Positions 476-21,758 of a DNA stretch of 33,912 nt are shown here, in pieces. The position numbers and the translations under genes were made by a program. Below the pieces are notes generated by a model. It was not told where the DNA came from, did not search any database, and saw only the letters and a list, made by a program, of their open reading frames with translations. The stretch is from Elusimicrobia bacterium LH_S2 (GTDB lineage Bacteria > CG03 > SLGR01 > JAGXOG01): the NCBI GenBank assembly GCA_023660015.1, contig JAGXOG010000009.1:1-33912 (forward strand), read 5' to 3'. The first letter of the stretch is position 1. The number at the start of each line of letters is the position of its first letter.

Positions 476-3400
476 CTATGATTCCAATATTCTATTTAAA
501 AATTGTTCTGCTTCTTTTATTCCCATTTCTGAACTTGAAATAAAGGCATGAAGATTAATTATTATTTCGTCCGTTTCTAAAATCTCATGATCATCAATAT
601 ATCCTTCTGCCATTAAATACTGTTCTAATTCATCCGCATTGTCCGTTCTAAATCGCGCTATTTCACCATTCCTTAATGCTTGTATCAATTGTTTCGGATC
701 CCTATTTAATGCACTCAATTTATCCGAAACTTTATCAATGAAAGCATCTGTAATAGCATCGGATTTTTCTAAAACACCTCTGTCAACTGGGAGAGAACGA
801 CCTTGTTGATATAATTCTTGAAATCGCTTTAAAAGATTAATCTTACTTTGTACTTGTTTAAATTTTTCTTCATCGAAATCCTGAATCCGACCATTATTCC
901 TGTAAAAACTCTCTAATTGTCCCCAAGATTTTATTCCTCTTTTCAAACAGGCATACAATAAATCAACATTTTCAATTAAATACCAAAGTGGAAGTTCACT
1001 GCAATTTTGTATCAGCATGTTAAATGGTTGTCTGCCGATTAACTCACCATATTCCTTATGATTTTCCCCATTTGGCGAAGGAACTTGTTGAGCTAAATTA
1101 ATGGTAGGCAAATCAGGTTTAAAATCCTTGTAATTATAGGATTCATTTGCTCCGCCATTTAATTGGATTATTTTATATTCAAGGTCACTTTGTTCATCCA
1201 AATGAGCCAACCACTTACCAACTTCATCAGTCTGTGCAGTAAAATAAAATACCTGCCGACCCTCCCGACTTATTTCAATTAATGATTCAATAATAGCCTT
1301 CGCCCGTTCATCATCACTATTGGCCAATAGCTCATCGGCCAATAAGGGTAGTTTTATGGATGATTCCTCAGTTTCCACGTATGCCAGTCGAACTGAAAGC
1401 AAAAGTTGAACACGCGTGCCAGTTGATAATTCAGATAAGTTTTGGCCGACGTTCAAGACCGTGTCATAAGCCCTGAAATTCGGTTCTTCTTTTTCCCCCA
1501 AGCGTAACTCATATCTCCCGTTTGTAATGTTGTTAAGAATAACATTCGCACGTTTAAATATTTTGGGGCGGTTTTGATCTCGAGTTTCCTTTTTTAATTG
1601 ATTTATAATTAGGTTTCCGGTAGCAGAAGACAAATTGTTTTCATATAACCGATCAAGACTGTCTAATGCTTCTTCTTTTTCGGCCAGGACATCCTCTAAT
1701 TCGTGTCCCTTTTTCTTGTCCTGAATTCGGGTTTCAATACTTGTAATTTCCTTTTGAATACTTTCTAACCCATCAGCTATATTCTTGTTTTCATTTTCCA
1801 GCTCTTGTGCCTGATCCACACTTAAACTTTGGATTTTTTGTTCATATTCATCATACAAGGAATGTTCTTGTAAAAGACGTTTCTTCTTTGAATAACTTTG
1901 TTCAGCAGAATAATGATCTTTAGACTTTTGTTCGTAGTCAGATAACTGCTTCACCAATTTCCGTACACTTTCTTTGTCATTCTCATCTATATCCAATACC
2001 TGATAAATTTTTGAAAGTTCCTGTGTAGACCCTTGCTTCGACCTCTTATGCTCTTCGATTTTCTCGTTTCTTTCTTTAATTAACCGAGAACATTCCGTAC
2101 GTGTAATTTCCTGCTCTTTCAGTTCATTGAACGTTGCCTTTACTTCAGTTACATCATTAGACTGATCAAAATTTGATTTTACAAACAAGGCATTGACTTT
2201 GTTCATTTCATTTTTGTATTTTTCTTTTGACTTTGCCTTTTTAGCTTTCAATCTTTCCAATTGTATATGGGCATCTTGCCATTTTTTTACCTGTATTAAA
2301 AACCAGTACAAACTACTGAAGTCATTTGAGTTGGTTTCAGGAAAACCAGGTGCGGTTTGTAACTTCTCCACCCATTCTTCACGTGTTTTATTTATCTTAT
2401 CAAGTTGTTTTTGCAGTTTCTCCAGGTTGTCTTTGCAGTTTTTTGATCTTTGCCTGATCCTTTCTGCTTCTTTAGCGTCTCTTAAATTTTCAATCAATTC
2501 TCCAATCCGCTCAGCTACATTTTCCACATTCCATTGAGAAGGCGGTGTAAGGTCGGATTTGATAAAATCATTTTCCCTTAAGTTGAGAGTATTTGAATTC
2601 TTGTTTTTTGTGGAATAAGCGTATAGAAAAAATACAGCAATCAAGACAATCCCCAGAAGCCCGGGCCATCCTGAAAAAAAAGTAACAATGCCTGTCGCAA
2701 CTCCCAGAAGTGAAATTGAAATCACAACCCAGAAAGGTATGCCGGTGGAAGCTGTTTGTTCCTTCAACCAGTCGCCCAGCGTTTTTATTGCCTGAATGAA
2801 TATGTCGGAATTCTGCTCTTCCTTTTCGAAATTTTTTATTTCTTTTTCCAATGATTTAATCTCTGAATGTAAAAATTCCTTTTCGCCCAAAACCTGGTGA
2901 GCTTTCTTGAGCATCTTATCAAGACCGCTTACATCTTCAATATTTAATTCATTCCATTCTGTGGGATCAATTGAATCGTCAAAACCTTGTAAGGCCTCTG
3001 ATTCTTCAGCTTCGAACCCGGCTATCTGTTCATCCTTAGTATCAATATCTCGTTTAAGATCACTTAGTTTATCAAGTCTTTCTTTTAAATCTTCTATAGT
3101 CTTATCACTAACTTCCTTTTCCGGAATGGTTAACTTTTCAAGTTCCTTCTGGCTTTTTTTTATTTCGTCTCGGGCTTGCTCAATGGCACCTTCGGAATCT
3201 TTGATCTGATTTTCCAAGCCCTGAATGTTATCATATTCTTTGCCAAAGAGTTTCTCCATCGAATCCGGAAACTCATTCATCTGATCAGAAAGTCGGGTGT
3301 AATCCAATTTTGCCTCCAAGTAATCAGCAACATTATTATAAAACTCATTTAGCTTAGCTGCATGTTGGGCTTTTTCTTCTTCTTTCTTCAGGTCAGTAAG

Positions 3401-3952
3401 TCTTTCTTCATCCTTTTTTAACTCCTTTTGCTTGTCCCGAATTTCCTTGTACTTTTTTTCCTCTTCCTCAACTTTTTTATGCTCTGAGACGTTCTTGTTT
3501 TTTGGACCGGATGAATATTCCAGGTTTTTTTGAACAGCATCTAAATCGAACCCTCCAATAGATTGTTTTGCTATCTCTTTAGCTAAGTCATTATCATGGC
3601 CCTCAACCAATTTATGTAAGGCTAACAGATAACGATGTTTCCCTTCTACTGCAGGGATCCCGCTAAACTCATCTTCATTTCCGTTTCGTTGAACGGTTAT
3701 GTTTTTAGAGTCAATCTTTATCTCCCATGGTTCTTTATCAAGAATGACTGAACCTTCAACATTTAACCCTTTTGTATTATCACGCCATACAAGTTGCTGA
3801 ATAATACGAGCAATTGAGCTTTTACCGGAGGCATTTGCACCGGCAATAATATTAATGTTGGCTGCTAAATCCTTCAATGAACCAAAGCCTTTGTCGAACC
3901 CAAGCATTTTGTGAATAGAAAGGTGTTTTAATATGTATGGAACTTTTTTCAT
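476..3952 (-). CDS. SMC/Rad50-like AAA ATPase (SbcC/YhaN-like), long coiled coils interrupted by a two-helix membrane hairpin, C-terminal extension of about 200 aa
   Basis: 1158-aa ORF. Walker A AGANASGKSS near the N-terminus, ABC-signature-like LSTGTRVQ, Walker B-like LPLLADELLANSDDER, extensive K/E-rich heptad regions, central hydrophobic pair IPFWVVISISLLGVATGIVTFF / GLLGIVLIAVFFLYAY. Stop/start overlap with the upstream phosphoesterase gene. Confidence 0.88.
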   Translation of the reverse strand: MKKVPYILKHLSIHKMLGFDKGFGSLKDLAANINIIAGANASGKSSIARIIQQLVWRDNTKGLNVEGSVILDKEPWEIKIDSKNITVQRNGNEDEFSGIPAVEGKHRYLLALHKLVEGHDNDLAKEIAKQSIGGFDLDAVQKNLEYSSGPKNKNVSEHKKVEEEEKKYKEIRDKQKELKKDEERLTDLKKEEEKAQHAAKLNEFYNNVADYLEAKLDYTRLSDQMNEFPDSMEKLFGKEYDNIQGLENQIKDSEGAIEQARDEIKKSQKELEKLTIPEKEVSDKTIEDLKERLDKLSDLKRDIDTKDEQIAGFEAEESEALQGFDDSIDPTEWNELNIEDVSGLDKMLKKAHQVLGEKEFLHSEIKSLEKEIKNFEKEEQNSDIFIQAIKTLGDWLKEQTASTGIPFWVVISISLLGVATGIVTFFSGWPGLLGIVLIAVFFLYAYSTKNKNSNTLNLRENDFIKSDLTPPSQWNVENVAERIGELIENLRDAKEAERIRQRSKNCKDNLEKLQKQLDKINKTREEWVEKLQTAPGFPETNSNDFSSLYWFLIQVKKWQDAHIQLERLKAKKAKSKEKYKNEMNKVNALFVKSNFDQSNDVTEVKATFNELKEQEITRTECSRLIKERNEKIEEHKRSKQGSTQELSKIYQVLDIDENDKESVRKLVKQLSDYEQKSKDHYSAEQSYSKKKRLLQEHSLYDEYEQKIQSLSVDQAQELENENKNIADGLESIQKEITSIETRIQDKKKGHELEDVLAEKEEALDSLDRLYENNLSSATGNLIINQLKKETRDQNRPKIFKRANVILNNITNGRYELRLGEKEEPNFRAYDTVLNVGQNLSELSTGTRVQLLLSVRLAYVETEESSIKLPLLADELLANSDDERAKAIIESLIEISREGRQVFYFTAQTDEVGKWLAHLDEQSDLEYKIIQLNGGANESYNYKDFKPDLPTINLAQQVPSPNGENHKEYGELIGRQPFNMLIQNCSELPLWYLIENVDLLYACLKRGIKSWGQLESFYRNNGRIQDFDEEKFKQVQSKINLLKRFQELYQQGRSLPVDRGVLEKSDAITDAFIDKVSDKLSALNRDPKQLIQALRNGEIARFRTDNADELEQYLMAEGYIDDHEILETDEIIINLHAFISSSEMGIKEAEQFLNRILES

Positions 3953-5244
3953 TGTGTTTTCTGACCAATTAGTTCTGCCAAAATACGATTACATTCTTTT
4001 AGGATATATTCTTTTGATTCCGGATTTTGTTCAAATTGAAATCTTTCTGTTGTACGAAGAGGTTGATATGTGCTCGCCGTACTAATGGAACCATGGATCG
4101 ACTTCCAGACCTCAAACAAGTTGTCCAAAAAGTCGGTAGTTTCTCCTTTCTGAAGTGCAATGATCGTTCTGGCTAAAACACCAGCAGGAGAGGATCCTTG
4201 AGCCAATTTTTCCAAATTTTCCACTTTCGGTTGAACATCAATCAGAATTTTTCGAACCGAAAGTCGGATTTCTGTTGTATCGATCTCCTGATCATAATCA
4301 TCTACAATTGGATTTACCCATGTTTCCAAATCTCTGATCTTGCTATGCCAGCCTTCAAGTTTTATGTCATAAATTAAAAAAGAAACATTCTCTAAGTCCA
4401 TTATTTTTGACTGTGCATCATCATACAATTTTGAAGTAACAGCGTCTCTGACCCTGGCTTCATCAGATTTATCACTAATGTTAATTGAGAGATTCTCATA
4501 CCTTATCGGTGATACCGGGATTTGCTTTATTTGTATATCCTCTTTGGTATGAATTGTAAATAAAATCGGACCGTGTATACCTTGTTCCTTAGCACTTAAA
4601 GCATGTGGTGAGCCGGGATAGTACACAATTGGCTCAGATTCCTTCATTTGTAGTTTATGAATATGTCCAAGAATCCACGCGTGTACAGGAGGGGTCGAAA
4701 AATTTTTGGAATTTATTGGGGCATATTTGCTATCGGGAACATCAACATCTCCATGAACAAGACCTATTGTGGTGATATTTGAATCAATTTCAGCTATATC
4801 AAATTTCGAAAGGGGATCTTCGCTAACATGTTTACTTGGAAATGACCAACCAACAAATTGTATTTTTTCTCCATTCTTTGAGAATGTTTTCATCTCCCAT
4901 TTCCCGTTAACTCCTAGGAGATGTACATTGTCATATCTTTCTGGGTCTATTAACTGAGGCAGAACATCATAATCGTGATTCCCTGCAACTATATAAATTG
5001 AAATATCTGATTGCTTTAATTTTTCGAAACCATCTTGTAGAGGCCCAATCGCCTCAAAGAAGCGGTTATCCTGATCTACAATATCTCCTGTAAGAACTAA
5101 TACATCAGCTTTTTCCTTCTTAATTGCCAGGTTAACTATTTTTTCCCAGGTGTTTTTTGTTGCACTTTCTTCGTCGTTCAGCGGAACACTGGAGGATTTT
5201 TTCCCAATATGAATATCGCCCGTAGCTAATATTTTTAGTGCCAT
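3949..5244 (-). CDS. SbcD/Mre11/YhaO-like metallophosphoesterase (DNA repair exonuclease family)
   Basis: 431-aa ORF with the full calcineurin-like motif series: GDIHIGK, GDIVDQ, GNHDYD, HGDVD, GHIHK. Overlaps the SbcC-like ORF by 4 nt. Confidence 0.9.
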   Translation of the reverse strand: MALKILATGDIHIGKKSSSVPLNDEESATKNTWEKIVNLAIKKEKADVLVLTGDIVDQDNRFFEAIGPLQDGFEKLKQSDISIYIVAGNHDYDVLPQLIDPERYDNVHLLGVNGKWEMKTFSKNGEKIQFVGWSFPSKHVSEDPLSKFDIAEIDSNITTIGLVHGDVDVPDSKYAPINSKNFSTPPVHAWILGHIHKLQMKESEPIVYYPGSPHALSAKEQGIHGPILFTIHTKEDIQIKQIPVSPIRYENLSINISDKSDEARVRDAVTSKLYDDAQSKIMDLENVSFLIYDIKLEGWHSKIRDLETWVNPIVDDYDQEIDTTEIRLSVRKILIDVQPKVENLEKLAQGSSPAGVLARTIIALQKGETTDFLDNLFEVWKSIHGSISTASTYQPLRTTERFQFEQNPESKEYILKECNRILAELIGQKTQ

Positions 5245-15118: not shown

Positions 15119-15459
15119 CCTACCAGCGCCACTATTTCAACGAAATAAGTTACAGTGCCCTCCACCAGGTGACCACTCAGGGCCGCTCCGCCTTCCAGTC
15201 CCCCGGTTATATGAATATGAGCTTTTCCTTCATCTATAATTCCGTTTCCGGTAAGTTCAATTTTATTATTAAACTCCTTTTCAAAATGTTCCGGCGGCAC
15301 CTCATTGGAATCTTGGTATATAGTGACAATCTTAAAATTTTTAAGCGCTCCCACTACGGTCATTATCGTACCGGACTTAATCCCTTCAGCGGATAGATCT
15401 TTTTCAAATTCTCTGATTAACGACTGCCCTTCTTCATACCTGAATTTTATCTGTTTCAT
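15115..15459 (-). CDS. PPC/DUF296 domain protein
   Basis: 114 aa; SGTIMTVVGALKNFKIVTI, GKAHIHITGGLEGGAALSGHLVEG; overlaps both neighbours by 4 nt. Confidence 0.85.
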   Translation of the reverse strand: MKQIKFRYEEGQSLIREFEKDLSAEGIKSGTIMTVVGALKNFKIVTIYQDSNEVPPEHFEKEFNNKIELTGNGIIDEGKAHIHITGGLEGGAALSGHLVEGTVTYFVEIVALVG

Positions 15460-16331
15460 CTTATATCTTTTCCCTTTATTGTTTCCTTTACTGTTTCTTT
15501 AAGTAAAATCCTCTCCAATAAAACTCCTACCATCCGAGAACAATATTCTGCCGTGGAACGAAAATCATCTATGGGAGATGCTTCGGTCTTTATGGTTTCT
15601 TTTGCTTCCTGAATTATTTCCGGAAGCAGTGGTTCTCCTTTTAAAAGTTTTTCGGTTCTTTGAGCATTAATAGTTTTAGGGCCAACTGCTCCCATAAATA
15701 TAGAGATATTGCCTATAAGATCATCTTTCATTGTCCACCAAGCAGCAACCGATACTTTAGAAATAGCCAGCGCCTGCCGGGAACCGAGTTTTAAAAACCC
15801 CGAACTGCTTCCCGGATAAATCGGTATCTCCACCGAAAAAATTATCTCTCCTTCATTTAAAACATTATCGCCAGGGGCAACAATAAACTCGGAAACCGGA
15901 ATCTCTCTTATTCTGCCGGCTGTCTTTGTTTTAACAATAGCATCAAGCACGCATAAAGCAGGGATTGTATCCCCGGCCGGGCTGGAATTAGCAAGATTAC
16001 CGCCGACAGTGGCCCGATTTCTTATAAGCGGCGAACCCATATCCTTTGCCGCGTCTTTTAAGGCAACAGCATGCTCATTTATAATATCCGATGAGGCAAT
16101 CTCGGCCATTGTAGTCAGGGCCCCTATCCTTATATAATCATCATCTCGTTTTATTTTTTTTAACTCCTCCAGGGCACTTATATCAACCCAGATTCGGTCT
16201 TCAAGAAGTCCGTCTTTTTTAAGCGCCATAATATCGGTTCCGCCGGCAAGATAATATGCTTTGCGCCCGCGGACTTTCCGGCTTATGTCATCTATGGATT
16301 CGGGTATAATATAATCCATGTCGAGTTTCAT
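15456..16331 (-). CDS. Xanthine dehydrogenase/CO-dehydrogenase family FAD-binding (medium) subunit
   Basis: MKLDMDYIIPES..., YYLAGGTDIMALKKDG, RNRATVGGNLANSSPAGDTIPAL. Start set to the ATG at 16331 because the listed upstream extension is frame read-through of a tandem repeat. TAATG overlap with the upstream gene. Confidence 0.92.
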   Translation of the reverse strand: MKLDMDYIIPESIDDISRKVRGRKAYYLAGGTDIMALKKDGLLEDRIWVDISALEELKKIKRDDDYIRIGALTTMAEIASSDIINEHAVALKDAAKDMGSPLIRNRATVGGNLANSSPAGDTIPALCVLDAIVKTKTAGRIREIPVSEFIVAPGDNVLNEGEIIFSVEIPIYPGSSSGFLKLGSRQALAISKVSVAAWWTMKDDLIGNISIFMGAVGPKTINAQRTEKLLKGEPLLPEIIQEAKETIKTEASPIDDFRSTAEYCSRMVGVLLERILLKETVKETIKGKDIR

Positions 16332-16951
16332 TATAAATTTCCCCCGGGCAAATGTTCCTCGGATAAATGTTCCCCTGACAAGTTTTCTTCGGGCAAATGT
16401 TCCTTGGACAAATCTTCCCCTGACAAGTTTTCTTCGGGCAAATGTTCCTCGGGCAAATCTTCCCATGACAAGTTTTCTTCGGGCAAATTTCTTTCGGCAT
16501 ATTTTGCGGCAAGCTCTATTGCATCTATTATTTTAGTATATCCGGTGCACCTGCAAATATTGCCGGATATCGCCTGGCGTATCTCGTCCCGGTCAGGGCT
16601 TGAATTTACTTTAAGCAGAGCATAGGCCGACATTATAAATCCCGGAGTACAAAATCCGCACTGAATAGCCCCGGATTCTTTAAAGACCTGCTGCAAATCA
16701 GCCACATACCCCCCGGATTCTAAACCCTCTAAAGTAGTCACATTCCGGCCTCTCACCTGACCGGCTGCGACCATGCAGGAAGTTACCGGAACTCCGTCTA
16801 ATAAGATAGTGCAGGTACCGCACTCACCGCGACCGCATCCTTCTTTTACGCTTTTTACATCGAAATCCTCACGTAGAACCCTTAAGAGCGGTTTATCTCC
16901 CGGAACATCAGTATTTACTTTAATATTATTTAATATAAATGAAATATTCAT
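16331..16951 (-). CDS. Xanthine dehydrogenase/CO-dehydrogenase family [2Fe-2S] (small) subunit with repeat-encoded C-terminal tail
   Basis: CGRGECGTCTILLDG and CGFCTPGFIMSAYALL...ISGNICRCTGYTKIIDAI motifs, then a tail NLPEENLSWEDLPEEHLPEENLSGEDLSKEHLPEENLSGEHLSEEHLPGGNL. Confidence 0.93.
   Translation of the reverse strand: MNISFILNNIKVNTDVPGDKPLLRVLREDFDVKSVKEGCGRGECGTCTILLDGVPVTSCMVAAGQVRGRNVTTLEGLESGGYVADLQQVFKESGAIQCGFCTPGFIMSAYALLKVNSSPDRDEIRQAISGNICRCTGYTKIIDAIELAAKYAERNLPEENLSWEDLPEEHLPEENLSGEDLSKEHLPEENLSGEHLSEEHLPGGNL
16340..16489. repeat. 15-nt tandem repeat (about 10 monomers) organised in 45-nt higher-order units
   Basis: On +: TTCTTCGGGCAAATG / TTCCTTGGACAAATC / TTCCCCTGACAAGTT (16385-16429) is followed by a copy with 3 differences out of 45 (16430-16474) and preceded by a more diverged copy (16340-16384). 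Confidence 0.95.
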
Positions 16952-16954
16952 AAC

Positions 16955-19234
16955 TTACTTTAACTCTTTGGATAACTCTTTAACGATATCTTCGGGAAGG
17001 CAGGGAACTTTTCTGAACCATATCCCGGTAGCGTCGTGTATTGCATTTAATATGGCCGCCGCCGGGCCCACCATCGGGGGCTCTCCTAACCCTTTTGCCC
17101 CGCGGGGCCCTTCGGGGTAAGCGGATTCAACGAGTATCGGTTCCACATCGCAAATGTCCATGGTGGTAGGAACAGTATACCCAGAAAGCGACGGATTCAG
17201 TATTTTGCCTTCTTCCATGACAAGATTTTCATATAAGGCGTAGCCGATTGCCTGAACGGCACCCCCCTGAATCTGGCCTTCGGCTGAAGGCGGGTGTATA
17301 GCCTTGCCCACATCATGGGCGGCAACCAGGCGTTTAACGTTAACTACACCCGTTTCGGTATCTACCTCTACTTCGCAGGCATTTGTGGAAAAAGAATATA
17401 CCGGATAAGCGTCTCCTAATCCCGTCTTTTCATCAAAACTTACATTTTCTATCTTATACCAACCCTGGGCGGCAACCCGTTCTCTTGACTGGTAAGCAAG
17501 GTTTACTGCATCGACATAATCAATTTCCCCTTCGTCGGATACGTATTTACCGTCTTTTACCTTTATATCAAAAGGCCTGACCCCCATCTTATCGGCGGCG
17601 GCCTTAAAAAGAGATTCCCTCACCTTTAATGCCGCGTCCTTTACAGCATTACCCCCCATGAGCGTAGTTCGTGAAGCCACCGTGGGCCCGGAATCCGGAA
17701 CCCTTGTTGTATCGGGTTTAAGTACCTCTACCATATCATAAGAGCAGCCCAGTATATCCGCACATATACGGTTAAATACTGTCTCTGCACCCTGCCCCAT
17801 CTCGACATTTCCTATAGCCACAAAGACCGTGCCGTCTTCTTTAATATGCACTTGGGCTGCGGCCTTGGCAAAATATTTGCCTTCCGCACCGAGACCGACA
17901 CCATAAAATACGGTAGCCATCCCCATCCCCCTCTTTACGGGGCCGCTGTCTGACCCCTTGTATTGCTTGAATTTAATTCTGTCCAGGGTTTTCTCAACGG
18001 TTTCGGCCATGCCGCATGAACTGCCGACAGTCTGGCCGGTTGCCGTTATGCTTCCCGGCTTTAAGAGGTTCTTCTTTCTTAACTTTACGGGGTCCATATC
18101 TAATTTTTCGGCGAGTTCGTCAATTAAAATTTCGTTGGCAAAATTCACTTGTGGCTGCCCAAATCCCCGGAAAGCTCCGCAGGGAACAGTATTTGTAGCC
18201 ATCGCATAGGAATCCGCTTTTACATTATCTATCTGGTAAGGCCCTGTAATATGTATTATTCCCCGCCAGGCAACTATGGGAGAAAGAGTGCAGAAGGCTC
18301 CCCCGTTTACAATATATTCGGCTTCGCAGGCCACTAATTTCCCCTCTGATGTGGCACCGTATTTTATCCTGGTACGGGCCGGGTGTCGTTTGGACATGGC
18401 GTGAAAATCTTCTTCCCGGTCATATATTAAACTTACCGGCATACCGGTTTTGCGGGCAAGCAGCGCGGCATGAGTAGCTATTATTGAAGGCATATCCTCT
18501 TTACCGCCGAATCCACCGCCGGTTTCGGCCTGGATAACCCGGACATCGGAATATTTAATTCCCAGCACTTTAACTAAAGCATTATGCACATAAAACGGGC
18601 ACTGCATAGAGCCTTTTACCAATATCCCCCCCGAAGGCAACGGTTCGGCCGTCATTCCCTGGTTTTCAAGGTAACAGTGCACCTGGTGTCCGGTATTATA
18701 TACTCTTTCTATTATCACATCGGCATTCTTAAAACCCTCGTCTATATTGCCTTTTCTTATTTTAAAATTGGAATGTACGTTTTCATCGCCCCCTACATAG
18801 ACGGCATCCGGAGTCATAGCCTCCACCGGGTCGTAAATACCCGGATATTTGTCAATCTTAAGCTCCGCCGCACGCATCGCTGCCACCGCCTGTTCGGGAG
18901 TTTCTGCTGCCACCAGGGCCACGGCCTGACCGTAGAATTTTACTTCTTTATCGGCAAGGCAGGGATAATCTTCTTTTACAAAAGGCACGACGTTATCACC
19001 CGGTATATCTTCGGCCTTTACTACCGCTCTCACCCCGGGCATCTTTTTTATATCCTCAAGGTTCTTAAAACCCCTTATGCAGCCGTGGGTGACGGGACTT
19101 CTTATAGTAGCCCCGTGCAGAATATTTTTATATTCCGCATCTTCTATAAACTTTGCTTTGCCCGATACCTTCCTCTGGGCGTCTACCCTGATATTTCTGT
19201 CTTTCTTATTTTTTTTAGGTGTAATTACAGACAT
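16955..19234 (-). CDS. Xanthine dehydrogenase/aldehyde oxidase family molybdopterin-binding large subunit
   Basis: 759 aa; ETGGGFGGKED, CGAFRGFGQPQVNFANE, GNVEMGQGAETVFNRICADILG, PSAEGQIQGGAVQAIGYALYE, GAKGLGEPPMVGPAAAILNAIHDATG. Confidence 0.94.
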   Translation of the reverse strand: MSVITPKKNKKDRNIRVDAQRKVSGKAKFIEDAEYKNILHGATIRSPVTHGCIRGFKNLEDIKKMPGVRAVVKAEDIPGDNVVPFVKEDYPCLADKEVKFYGQAVALVAAETPEQAVAAMRAAELKIDKYPGIYDPVEAMTPDAVYVGGDENVHSNFKIRKGNIDEGFKNADVIIERVYNTGHQVHCYLENQGMTAEPLPSGGILVKGSMQCPFYVHNALVKVLGIKYSDVRVIQAETGGGFGGKEDMPSIIATHAALLARKTGMPVSLIYDREEDFHAMSKRHPARTRIKYGATSEGKLVACEAEYIVNGGAFCTLSPIVAWRGIIHITGPYQIDNVKADSYAMATNTVPCGAFRGFGQPQVNFANEILIDELAEKLDMDPVKLRKKNLLKPGSITATGQTVGSSCGMAETVEKTLDRIKFKQYKGSDSGPVKRGMGMATVFYGVGLGAEGKYFAKAAAQVHIKEDGTVFVAIGNVEMGQGAETVFNRICADILGCSYDMVEVLKPDTTRVPDSGPTVASRTTLMGGNAVKDAALKVRESLFKAAADKMGVRPFDIKVKDGKYVSDEGEIDYVDAVNLAYQSRERVAAQGWYKIENVSFDEKTGLGDAYPVYSFSTNACEVEVDTETGVVNVKRLVAAHDVGKAIHPPSAEGQIQGGAVQAIGYALYENLVMEEGKILNPSLSGYTVPTTMDICDVEPILVESAYPEGPRGAKGLGEPPMVGPAAAILNAIHDATGIWFRKVPCLPEDIVKELSKELK

Positions 19235-19253: not shown

Positions 19254-21758
19254 CTATTCTTCACTTAACTCTTCTGTCTCTTCGGGGGTTCTTTCTCTCA
19301 TTTCAAGTGCGCCGGAAAAGCATCTTTTTGTGCATATAGAACACCCTATGCAGTTTGAAGGGTCGATTTCCGGCTTAAGATTGTCATCGAGAGTTATAGC
19401 CAGATACGGGCACCGGGCGCAGTTGCCGCAACCCAAACAAAGGTCGGGGTCAATAAGCGAAGATATCTTTTTAGTAGCCGAAAGGTCCATGAAATTCGTT
19501 ATCGGGTCCGGCTGGGCGATTCCTATAAGTTTCTTCATCGAACTTATTCCCCGCTCTTTCATAAGAAAGCTCACCCCGTTTTTAAGCTCACCTATAATGC
19601 CGTAGCCGTATTTCATGACAATTGTGCAATATTGAACTGTCTTTGCCCCCAGGGCGAGAAAATTAGCGCTCTGAAGATAATCCATGGGACCGCCGTTACC
19701 TGATATAGGAACTCCCATCGGGGCCGTGCGGGCCAGCGTAAAATAACTTATGGGGGCTACCCCCTCTCCGCTCATACCGAGAACTACCCCGTCGGGCCAT
19801 CTTTCTTTTTCCCTATCTTCAAATCCGAGAACCGGGAAAGTGTTAGCCAGCGTAACGCCGGCTTTCTTATCCGGATATTTCGAGAGCGTCTCTTTTACTG
19901 CCTCCATTATGGTCTCAATAGAAGTTACCGCCGCGGAAAGTTTAAAGAGCTTGGGTATCTCCGGGTTACTTACTTCCATTACCCATTCTATAACCTTAGC
20001 TGTAGCTTCGGCGCTCTGGGAAACTATATCGCCCTCTGTTCCCTCACCGCCCTGCGGACAGGAAAGGCTGTACTCTATTCCCATGGCCCCGGCCTCTTCA
20101 AGCCGTTTTGTATTGGACTGCCACCCTTTTTTATCCTCCGTATCATTTCCGGTTACCGGCCCGCCGGTTGAAGACATGGTAAGCTTATCCGGGTATTCTT
20201 TTACCAGACGCTCAACTTCGCCGCAGACCCTCTCTAAGAGGTGGCCTGAGACATTGTCGCAGTTGCCGTAGGTGGTGTCGTTGAAAGTATGCATATATTC
20301 ACCGGGAATATATATGGGACCCGAAGCAAATGATGTTTTCAGGACTCCGCCCGACCAGCCGGCTTCGTAAGCTTTTTTCATCTGGTCGTAACCGTCGGAC
20401 GGAGGAGCGGCAGAAAGCAGGAAAGGAGTATCTATTTTCCTGCCGAAAAAATCTGTCTCCAGAGATACCGGCGTGCTGATATAACCTTCAATAGAAGAAT
20501 TGTTTTTATTTTTCTCTTTTATTTCAATATTTCTGCCTGATATAATAATTGAATCAATTTTTTCAGCGGCGTTTTTACCCGAAGAAAGAGCTTCTACCAC
20601 CGTAGAAGGCCCATAGTCACAGTCCCCGGCAAGTATCACATCTGTGCCGGAAATTTCAGGTAGTTTTGGGCGGTTGCCCACTGCTATTATTACATATTCA
20701 ATGTCGCTGCGGGACCGGGCGGAATCTCCGACTTCTGAAATATCGGCAAGATTAAAGAGTTCGCCTTTTAATTTAACTTTTACGGTTTCAAGCCCGGTTA
20801 CCTTATCGCCGGACATATTAATTTTATTTACTTTTGTCCTTCCGGAGACCTCTATATTATAGTCGAAAATTTCTTCCCTCTCCCTTTGGGTTAAGGGGAG
20901 TTCGGAAACTGTTTCCAGAGCAAACATCTCTACATCGGATGCTCCGTTTATCTTAGCTATAGTAGCGCAGTCAAGAGCCACGGCTCCGCCGCCTATTACC
21001 GCTACTCGTCCGGAGAGATCATAATCATCAGGATTATCTAAATAATCTAAAGAATTTATTGCTTTCTCTTCGTTTTCTGCTCCGGGATAAATTGGTTTCC
21101 ATAGACCGACAGCAACTATAATACCATCGTATCCTTTATCCTTAAGTTTACTTATATTCTCTATCCTGGTTCCGGTATTAATATTTATATCTCCGAGCCC
21201 GGAAATAAATTCTGTATCTTTTCTTAACATATTCTTGTCAAGCCGGTAATCGGGGATTAAATTACACGCCCCCCCGAGGTCGTCTCTCTCTTCGTAAATA
21301 TCTACACTATATCCTTTCTGTCCCAAAATAGCCGCAGCGCCGAGACCGGCCGGTCCGGCGCCTATAACAGCAACCCTTTTTCCGTTAGACTCGGGCCGAA
21401 GAAATTCCGGAATTCCCCCTACTTCCCGCGCCTTATTAATTATATGGGCCTGGAGGTCAGGTATATTTATCGGGCTATCAAAAAGTTCATGGCTGCATTC
21501 GGCCATACAGTGGGTTTCCGGGCATACCATGCCGCATACTCCGCCCAGAGGATTGTTTTTCATAATCATTGCCGCAGCACGCTTATAGTCACCTTCGGAA
21601 GCTACCCGGGCGGCCATTATAAAATCTGCCGGTGAGCAGCCTGCCGGACATCCGTCCTTGCACGATTTTTCCTCGCAGTATTCACATCTTTGAGTCTCGG
21701 CTAAAAACTGTTTTTTCGTATATACCTGGCCCTCTTGTTTGTAATGATTTTTTTCCAT
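19254..21758 (-). CDS. PreT-PreA fusion / dihydropyrimidine-dehydrogenase-like flavo-iron-sulfur oxidoreductase
   Basis: 834 aa. N-terminal Cys-rich GltD-like domain (CEYCEEKSCKDGCPAGC), FAD motif VAVIGAGPAGLGAAAIL, second nucleotide-binding motif VAVIGGGAVALDCA, DHODH/PreA-like TIM barrel, C-terminal 2x[4Fe-4S] (CLGCGNCARCPY; CIGCSICTKRC). Confidence 0.88.
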   Translation of the reverse strand: MEKNHYKQEGQVYTKKQFLAETQRCEYCEEKSCKDGCPAGCSPADFIMAARVASEGDYKRAAAMIMKNNPLGGVCGMVCPETHCMAECSHELFDSPINIPDLQAHIINKAREVGGIPEFLRPESNGKRVAVIGAGPAGLGAAAILGQKGYSVDIYEERDDLGGACNLIPDYRLDKNMLRKDTEFISGLGDININTGTRIENISKLKDKGYDGIIVAVGLWKPIYPGAENEEKAINSLDYLDNPDDYDLSGRVAVIGGGAVALDCATIAKINGASDVEMFALETVSELPLTQREREEIFDYNIEVSGRTKVNKINMSGDKVTGLETVKVKLKGELFNLADISEVGDSARSRSDIEYVIIAVGNRPKLPEISGTDVILAGDCDYGPSTVVEALSSGKNAAEKIDSIIISGRNIEIKEKNKNNSSIEGYISTPVSLETDFFGRKIDTPFLLSAAPPSDGYDQMKKAYEAGWSGGVLKTSFASGPIYIPGEYMHTFNDTTYGNCDNVSGHLLERVCGEVERLVKEYPDKLTMSSTGGPVTGNDTEDKKGWQSNTKRLEEAGAMGIEYSLSCPQGGEGTEGDIVSQSAEATAKVIEWVMEVSNPEIPKLFKLSAAVTSIETIMEAVKETLSKYPDKKAGVTLANTFPVLGFEDREKERWPDGVVLGMSGEGVAPISYFTLARTAPMGVPISGNGGPMDYLQSANFLALGAKTVQYCTIVMKYGYGIIGELKNGVSFLMKERGISSMKKLIGIAQPDPITNFMDLSATKKISSLIDPDLCLGCGNCARCPYLAITLDDNLKPEIDPSNCIGCSICTKRCFSGALEMRERTPEETEELSEE

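Follow-up and report, generated by a model that had tools for sequence, protein, structure and literature searches.

An 11-unit, 15-nt tandem repeat at the C terminus of a molybdenum hydroxylase [2Fe-2S] subunit of Elusimicrobia bacterium LH_S2 and a class of 12- and 15-nt arrays in its genus

Short tandem repeats in proteins are biased to the protein flanks (PMC7230257), and replication slippage has been proposed as a source of such variable segments (PMC2884548). Bacterial intragenic minisatellites and short protein repeats resemble the array described here in their short unit, in a unit length that is a multiple of 3 and in their position at a terminus; different from them, many arrays occur here in one genus, with a common CGGR/TCCGGA core and a preference for 12- and 15-nt units. 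Rickettsia palindromic elements (RPEs) are likewise lineage-restricted in-frame additions to many unrelated metabolic genes (PMC10969869), but they are palindromic, ~150 bp long and inserted whole, whereas the 12- or 15-nt units considered here appear to come from resident sequence, with one unit present at several empty sites. Comparable as very short, dispersed tandem units are the small dispersed repeats, which are tandem, possibly mobile and about 20 bp long (PMC2884548); here, however, it is the local sequence that seems to expand, and no insertion signature was seen. PARCEL repeats are likewise coding repeats, arrayed in tandem, variable in number and scattered over genomes (PMC2996958), but their unit has 25 residues and dyad symmetry, and they are tied to membrane proteins and mobile elements. 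Finally, pentapeptide repeat proteins (PF00805) share with our locus a five-residue period and a central Leu, whereas the tail examined here has Glu at the inward position and matches no such profile.

The repeat tail and its host gene

The window, by which we mean the whole stretch of DNA analysed (33,912 nt), belongs to a draft genome that totals 1.04 Mb over 130 contigs and is 66.6% complete. Its minus strand carries the genes of a molybdenum hydroxylase of the xanthine dehydrogenase family, in which the molybdopterin-binding large subunit (16955 to 19234) precedes the [2Fe-2S] small subunit (16331 to 16951; 206 aa; Pfam Fer2_2, 3.6e-31, and Fer2) and the FAD-binding subunit (15456 to 16331) comes after. 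The [2Fe-2S] domains and the operon shared with FAD and Mo subunits are those of a small subunit of this family. No named xanthine dehydrogenase subunit reached its curated equivalog score in NCBIfam (XdhC model, 170.4 versus a cut-off of 217); because these models do match, but under their cut-offs, the enzyme family is clear and the substrate is not. Upstream, a dihydropyrimidinase, which scores above its cut-off, and a PreT/PreA-like fusion, which stays under its own, suggest that the neighbourhood is a nucleobase-catabolism cluster. Elsewhere in the window, at 476 to 5244 on the minus strand, a 1158-aa AAA/SMC-like protein adjoins a calcineurin-like phosphoesterase, an arrangement that is SbcCD-like.

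The normal domain of the Fe-S subunit covers about residues 1 to 151, and residues 153 to 206 form a repeat tail. The tail is encoded by a tandem array on the minus strand (16331 to 16495), in which 11 units of 15 nt make up the last 55 codons of the gene, the last unit including the stop codon. Read in the Fe-S frame from 16495 to 16331, the units are ERNLP, EENLS, WEDLP, EEHLP, EENLS, GEDLS, KEHLP, EENLS, GEHLS, EEHLP and GGNL*. Three 45-nt higher-order units of the EENLSxExLxxEHLP type (16346 to 16480, minus strand) differ between neighbours at 3 of 45 positions, and the units at the edges of the array are more diverged than the inner ones. TRF called the array unprompted at 16345 to 16488 (period 45, 3.2 copies, 93% matches, score 253), with a second call at period 15 (9.6 copies). 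Given that the best score among 200 codon-shuffled versions of the Fe-S gene was 52, the array is beyond chance. The 15-nt/45-nt repeat described in an earlier, sequence-only reading is thus real, including the 3/45 differences, but its copy number is 11 rather than about 10 and its strand is the minus strand. All three minus-strand frames are open across the array, which makes by-products of the ARGTFARRKLV and ICPKKTCQGK reading frames, as that reading had supposed; on the plus strand, stops interrupt one frame and leave the other two open.

The Fe-S subunit extends 68 residues past the CRCTGY motif, versus 15 to 21 residues in the subunits of the same genus and the same order (15 to 19 in the order members outside the genus), a comparison of small subunits that bears out the earlier view of the tail as an addition. 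In particular, the orthologue in a second genome of the genus (hereafter, the sister genome), 80% identical, ends with KYNKGLNNEI* and overlaps the FAD start without any tail, in a genome that shares the gene order of Mo subunit, Fe-S subunit, FAD subunit, PCC domain and PGI. The tail is also missing from the paralogue in the LH_S2 genome and from all the close orthologues examined. Head-to-tail copies well above chance, a unit that is a multiple of 3, a preserved frame and absence from close relatives are the features of a coding minisatellite, and the sequence-only reading of a minisatellite expansion proves largely right.

At the end of the array, we could confirm the TAATG junction noted previously, where the stop codon TAA (16333 to 16331) overlaps the ATG of the FAD subunit (16331 to 16329). 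A Shine-Dalgarno-like site, CCGGGGGA, lies in the last unit (16340 to 16347, minus strand), 8 nt before this ATG; its predicted pairing, computed against a generic anti-Shine-Dalgarno sequence, is -8.6 kcal/mol, the strongest among the 7 starts examined in the window, versus -4.0 in the sister genome. The last unit is therefore likely, on this prediction, to supply the ribosome-binding site of the FAD gene. The array RNA is less structured than its shuffles (z +2.5), which ruled out an RNA hairpin at the junction. Translational coupling and FAD initiation are probably maintained across the array, because it offers a strong predicted Shine-Dalgarno pairing and is unstructured. An N-terminally extended FAD subunit, starting from the ATG at 16466 and reading through the array, was also considered and is probably spurious, with a weak Shine-Dalgarno pairing (-1.5).

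Arrays of 12 and 15 nt in the genus

The window unit had no other copy above control in its own genome and was at control level in 16 genomes of the phylum, where one match was a 2.4-copy 15-nt array in the thiE-like gene of the sister genome; the viral contigs searched gave no match. The exact three-unit pattern was met in GTDB contigs in three unrelated genes (LSKED-, LPEED- and LSEEN-like repeats), which we took as convergence. Thus, of the dispersed repeat family proposed for verification in the earlier reading, the same unit is found nowhere else in the genome above control level, but a genus-level class sharing core and unit lengths does exist.

The scan for arrays covered about 700 kb of LH_S2 sequence and 273 kb from the sister genome. 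Arrays inside ORFs mostly have periods divisible by 3 (17 of 20 in LH_S2 and 16 of 20 in the sister genome), and, among exact 8-mer repeats, spacing 12 is prominent in LH_S2 and in the sister genome alike, and spacing 15 clearly exceeds the adjacent spacings that 3 does not divide; spacings 22 and 42 are also high in LH_S2, from unrelated arrays. Many arrays of the sister genome have CGGG/CCGGA-type cores. The words most shared by its arrays were more frequent than under a tiled-random null for 5-mers (P 0.014) and 6-mers (P 0.004), with P 0.076 for 7-mers, the top words being in part A-rich.

In whole-genome pattern searches, controlled by reversed patterns, the sister genome gave 14 matches for CGGGMAA pairs (1 in the control) and 12 for TTCCGGA pairs (0 in the control), all 26 with a spacing of 12 or 15 in a search that admitted 13 and 14 just as well. 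Furthermore, TCCGGRMA pairs gave 11 matches versus 0, all at spacing 15 with 13 to 16 allowed, whereas TTCGGGVA pairs, searched at spacings 13 to 16 only, gave a single match, so that the 15-nt form of this word is rare. Some of these matches overlap or represent both strands of one palindromic site, and we count about 22 separate loci. The LH_S2 genome gave 3 and 1 core-pair matches versus 0 and 0 in the controls, one of them being the window array, and the rest of the phylum was near background; the sister genome thus carries a strong signal and LH_S2 a weak one. What is new is this set of sister-genome arrays, mostly in frame, which have in common a CGGR/TCCGGA core that recurs at exactly 12 or 15 nt. 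The core is not an over-represented genome-wide word of the uptake or HIP1-like kind, CCGG and CGGG being at expectation.

The window array is the longest short-unit example read in this class. The 6-mers that it has in common with the sister arrays score 102.5 versus 27.5 +/- 18.2 (P=0.0006), a value obtained post hoc, the core having been noticed first, and with a modelled null. The frames in which the core is read vary (SGK, PED, VRK), and in the window array it is mostly antisense; the core is therefore a feature of the DNA and not of the protein alone. Ser-Gly readings of the core nevertheless prevail, and the ease with which proteins accommodate Ser-Gly loops may play a part.

The empty sites are informative about the origin of these arrays. 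LH_S2 often holds one unit where the sister genome has three to five: HisA has a single TTTTCGGGCA versus three copies of a TTCGGGCAAAAA-like unit in the sister, and further empty sites show TTCCGGA versus three 15-nt copies, or GCGGGAAAG versus four 12-nt copies. Because of these resident units, local expansion seems favoured over the insertion of a mobile element. An RPE-like mobile dispersed element also fits poorly with the one unit kept at the empty sites of HisA, L163 and L165 and with the lack of a second copy of the window unit in its own genome. The exception is L238, where no seed can be made out clearly. Nor does the sister sequence show a resident seed at the tail locus, a point against in-place expansion there. 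C-terminal growth by 12-nt repeats occurs elsewhere in the genus, namely in the FAD subunit of the window, whose C-terminal tail KETVKETIKGK (15473 to 15501, minus strand) is missing from the same-genus orthologue ending in LERILVGK, and in a sister-species protein (SGKSSGKFSAKSSGKES).

Other repeats were recorded along the way. In the PreT/PreA-like gene of the same operon, the sister genome has an in-frame SGKASGKA (L112, 2253 to 2275), and the LH_S2 orthologue (window, 19254 to 21758) has a shorter ISGR. Within LH_S2, a UvrD/AddA-like helicase (L168, 12926 to 12972) contains a three-copy, 15-nt in-frame repeat, VPELNVPELNVGELNE, whose AAATGTTCCT is also found in the window array. Tandem repeats of 56 to 60 nt lie outside called ORFs in L153 (3933 to 4066) and L168 (14433 to 14547); they have in common AGCACACTTGTT and a stem-loop, the two arms of which vary in concert (AACAACCTAAATGGTTGTT, AACAGTCTAAATGACTGTT), possibly a dispersed hairpin element. 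Two different 22-nt units, with about three perfect copies each, occur in L148 (895 to 957 and 8800 to 8864), and a 291-nt tandem repeat (2.8 copies, 90% matches) occurs in L139 (3855 to 4657).

Nature and origin of the tail

A period of five residues, with a central Leu preceded by N or D in most units, recalls the right-handed quadrilateral beta-helix of pentapeptide repeats, but a Pfam search of the tail at E<=10 returned no PF00805 match and a single insignificant line. Furthermore, the inward residue two positions before the central Leu, for which the published consensus is A/C/S/V/T/L/I (PMC8145042), is Glu in 9 of the 11 units, Arg in the first and Gly in the last, and Pro directly follows the Leu in half of the units. 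The doubt already expressed about a standard beta-helix was well placed, and we regard such a fold as extremely unlikely. A single-sequence AlphaFold model, built without an alignment, has no strands in the tail but is uninformative, its mean pLDDT being 37 even across the known domain. A selected module, that is, an acidic, leucine-periodic tether or docking segment aiding the assembly of the three-subunit hydroxylase, would agree with the Leu of every unit, with the acid-rich pattern throughout and with a position where two co-translated subunits meet. We nevertheless judge it improbable: no relative examined has the tail, including the 80%-identical orthologue, Leu conservation is expected from recent copying alone, and the differences mostly change the amino acid. 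In particular, five of the six substitutions between 45-nt units are amino acid changing (W/G, P/S, E/K, D/H, K/E) and only TTG/TTA is silent, so that there is no sign of purifying selection, with little power from six substitutions; these few, nonsilent-rich changes are compatible with neutrality and lend no support to the linker or assembly tether suggested from the sequence.

About as improbable is that the array chiefly tunes translation of the FAD subunit, through the purine-rich, Shine-Dalgarno-like runs of its units, with the last one as the ribosome-binding site. The predicted pairing, above that of the sister and of every other window start examined, and the under-structured RNA speak for it; however, the last unit alone is positioned to act, the start codons available after the inner ones, read in the Fe-S frame, are TTGs, and the same effect is achievable without an array. 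As for the repeat or its copy number being an artefact of metagenome assembly, short tandem arrays are prone to miscounting and the genome is a fragmented, incomplete draft, but the units carry distinct substitutions, both flanks lie in a gene order conserved with the sister genome, and similar, smaller arrays occur in that separately assembled genome, which makes an artefact very unlikely.

The explanation that we consider likely is an in-place expansion at a permissive C terminus, one large case of a genus-level tendency. Where the small-subunit gene ends at its 3' side, a stretch of 15 nt would have been duplicated in tandem in place, by replication slippage, as we infer, or by short-homology recombination, and a 45-nt block would have been duplicated in a later step. 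The array would owe its survival to a unit length divisible by 3 that brings no in-frame stop, to a C terminus that tolerates additions, and to an array end that still provides the next subunit with its ribosome-binding site and TAATG start. The product would be an acidic, disordered extension, probably near neutral and most likely with little or no function; the functional suggestions were not supported by the tests run. Across the genus, single resident units of 12 or 15 nt with a CGGR/TCCGGA-type core would expand into short arrays at many genes, for the most part in frame.

The tail alone is an ordinary lineage-specific coding minisatellite rather than a known functional domain, and the genus-level tendency is of greater interest. 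Together with its sister counterparts, the tail illustrates how in-frame repeats begin and grow in unrelated bacterial enzymes, in a small natural series that starts at one resident unit and reaches eleven, and the common sequence core points to a testable mutational cause. It is possible to hypothesize, tentatively and as something we hold to be rather unlikely, that a genus-specific mutational process, such as breakage or slippage at CGGR/TCCGGA, repeatedly duplicates 12- or 15-nt stretches surrounding this core, genome-wide, with the window tail as its most advanced product. If so, this process would make the proteins of the genus grow loops and tails of the (S-G-K/x)n type.
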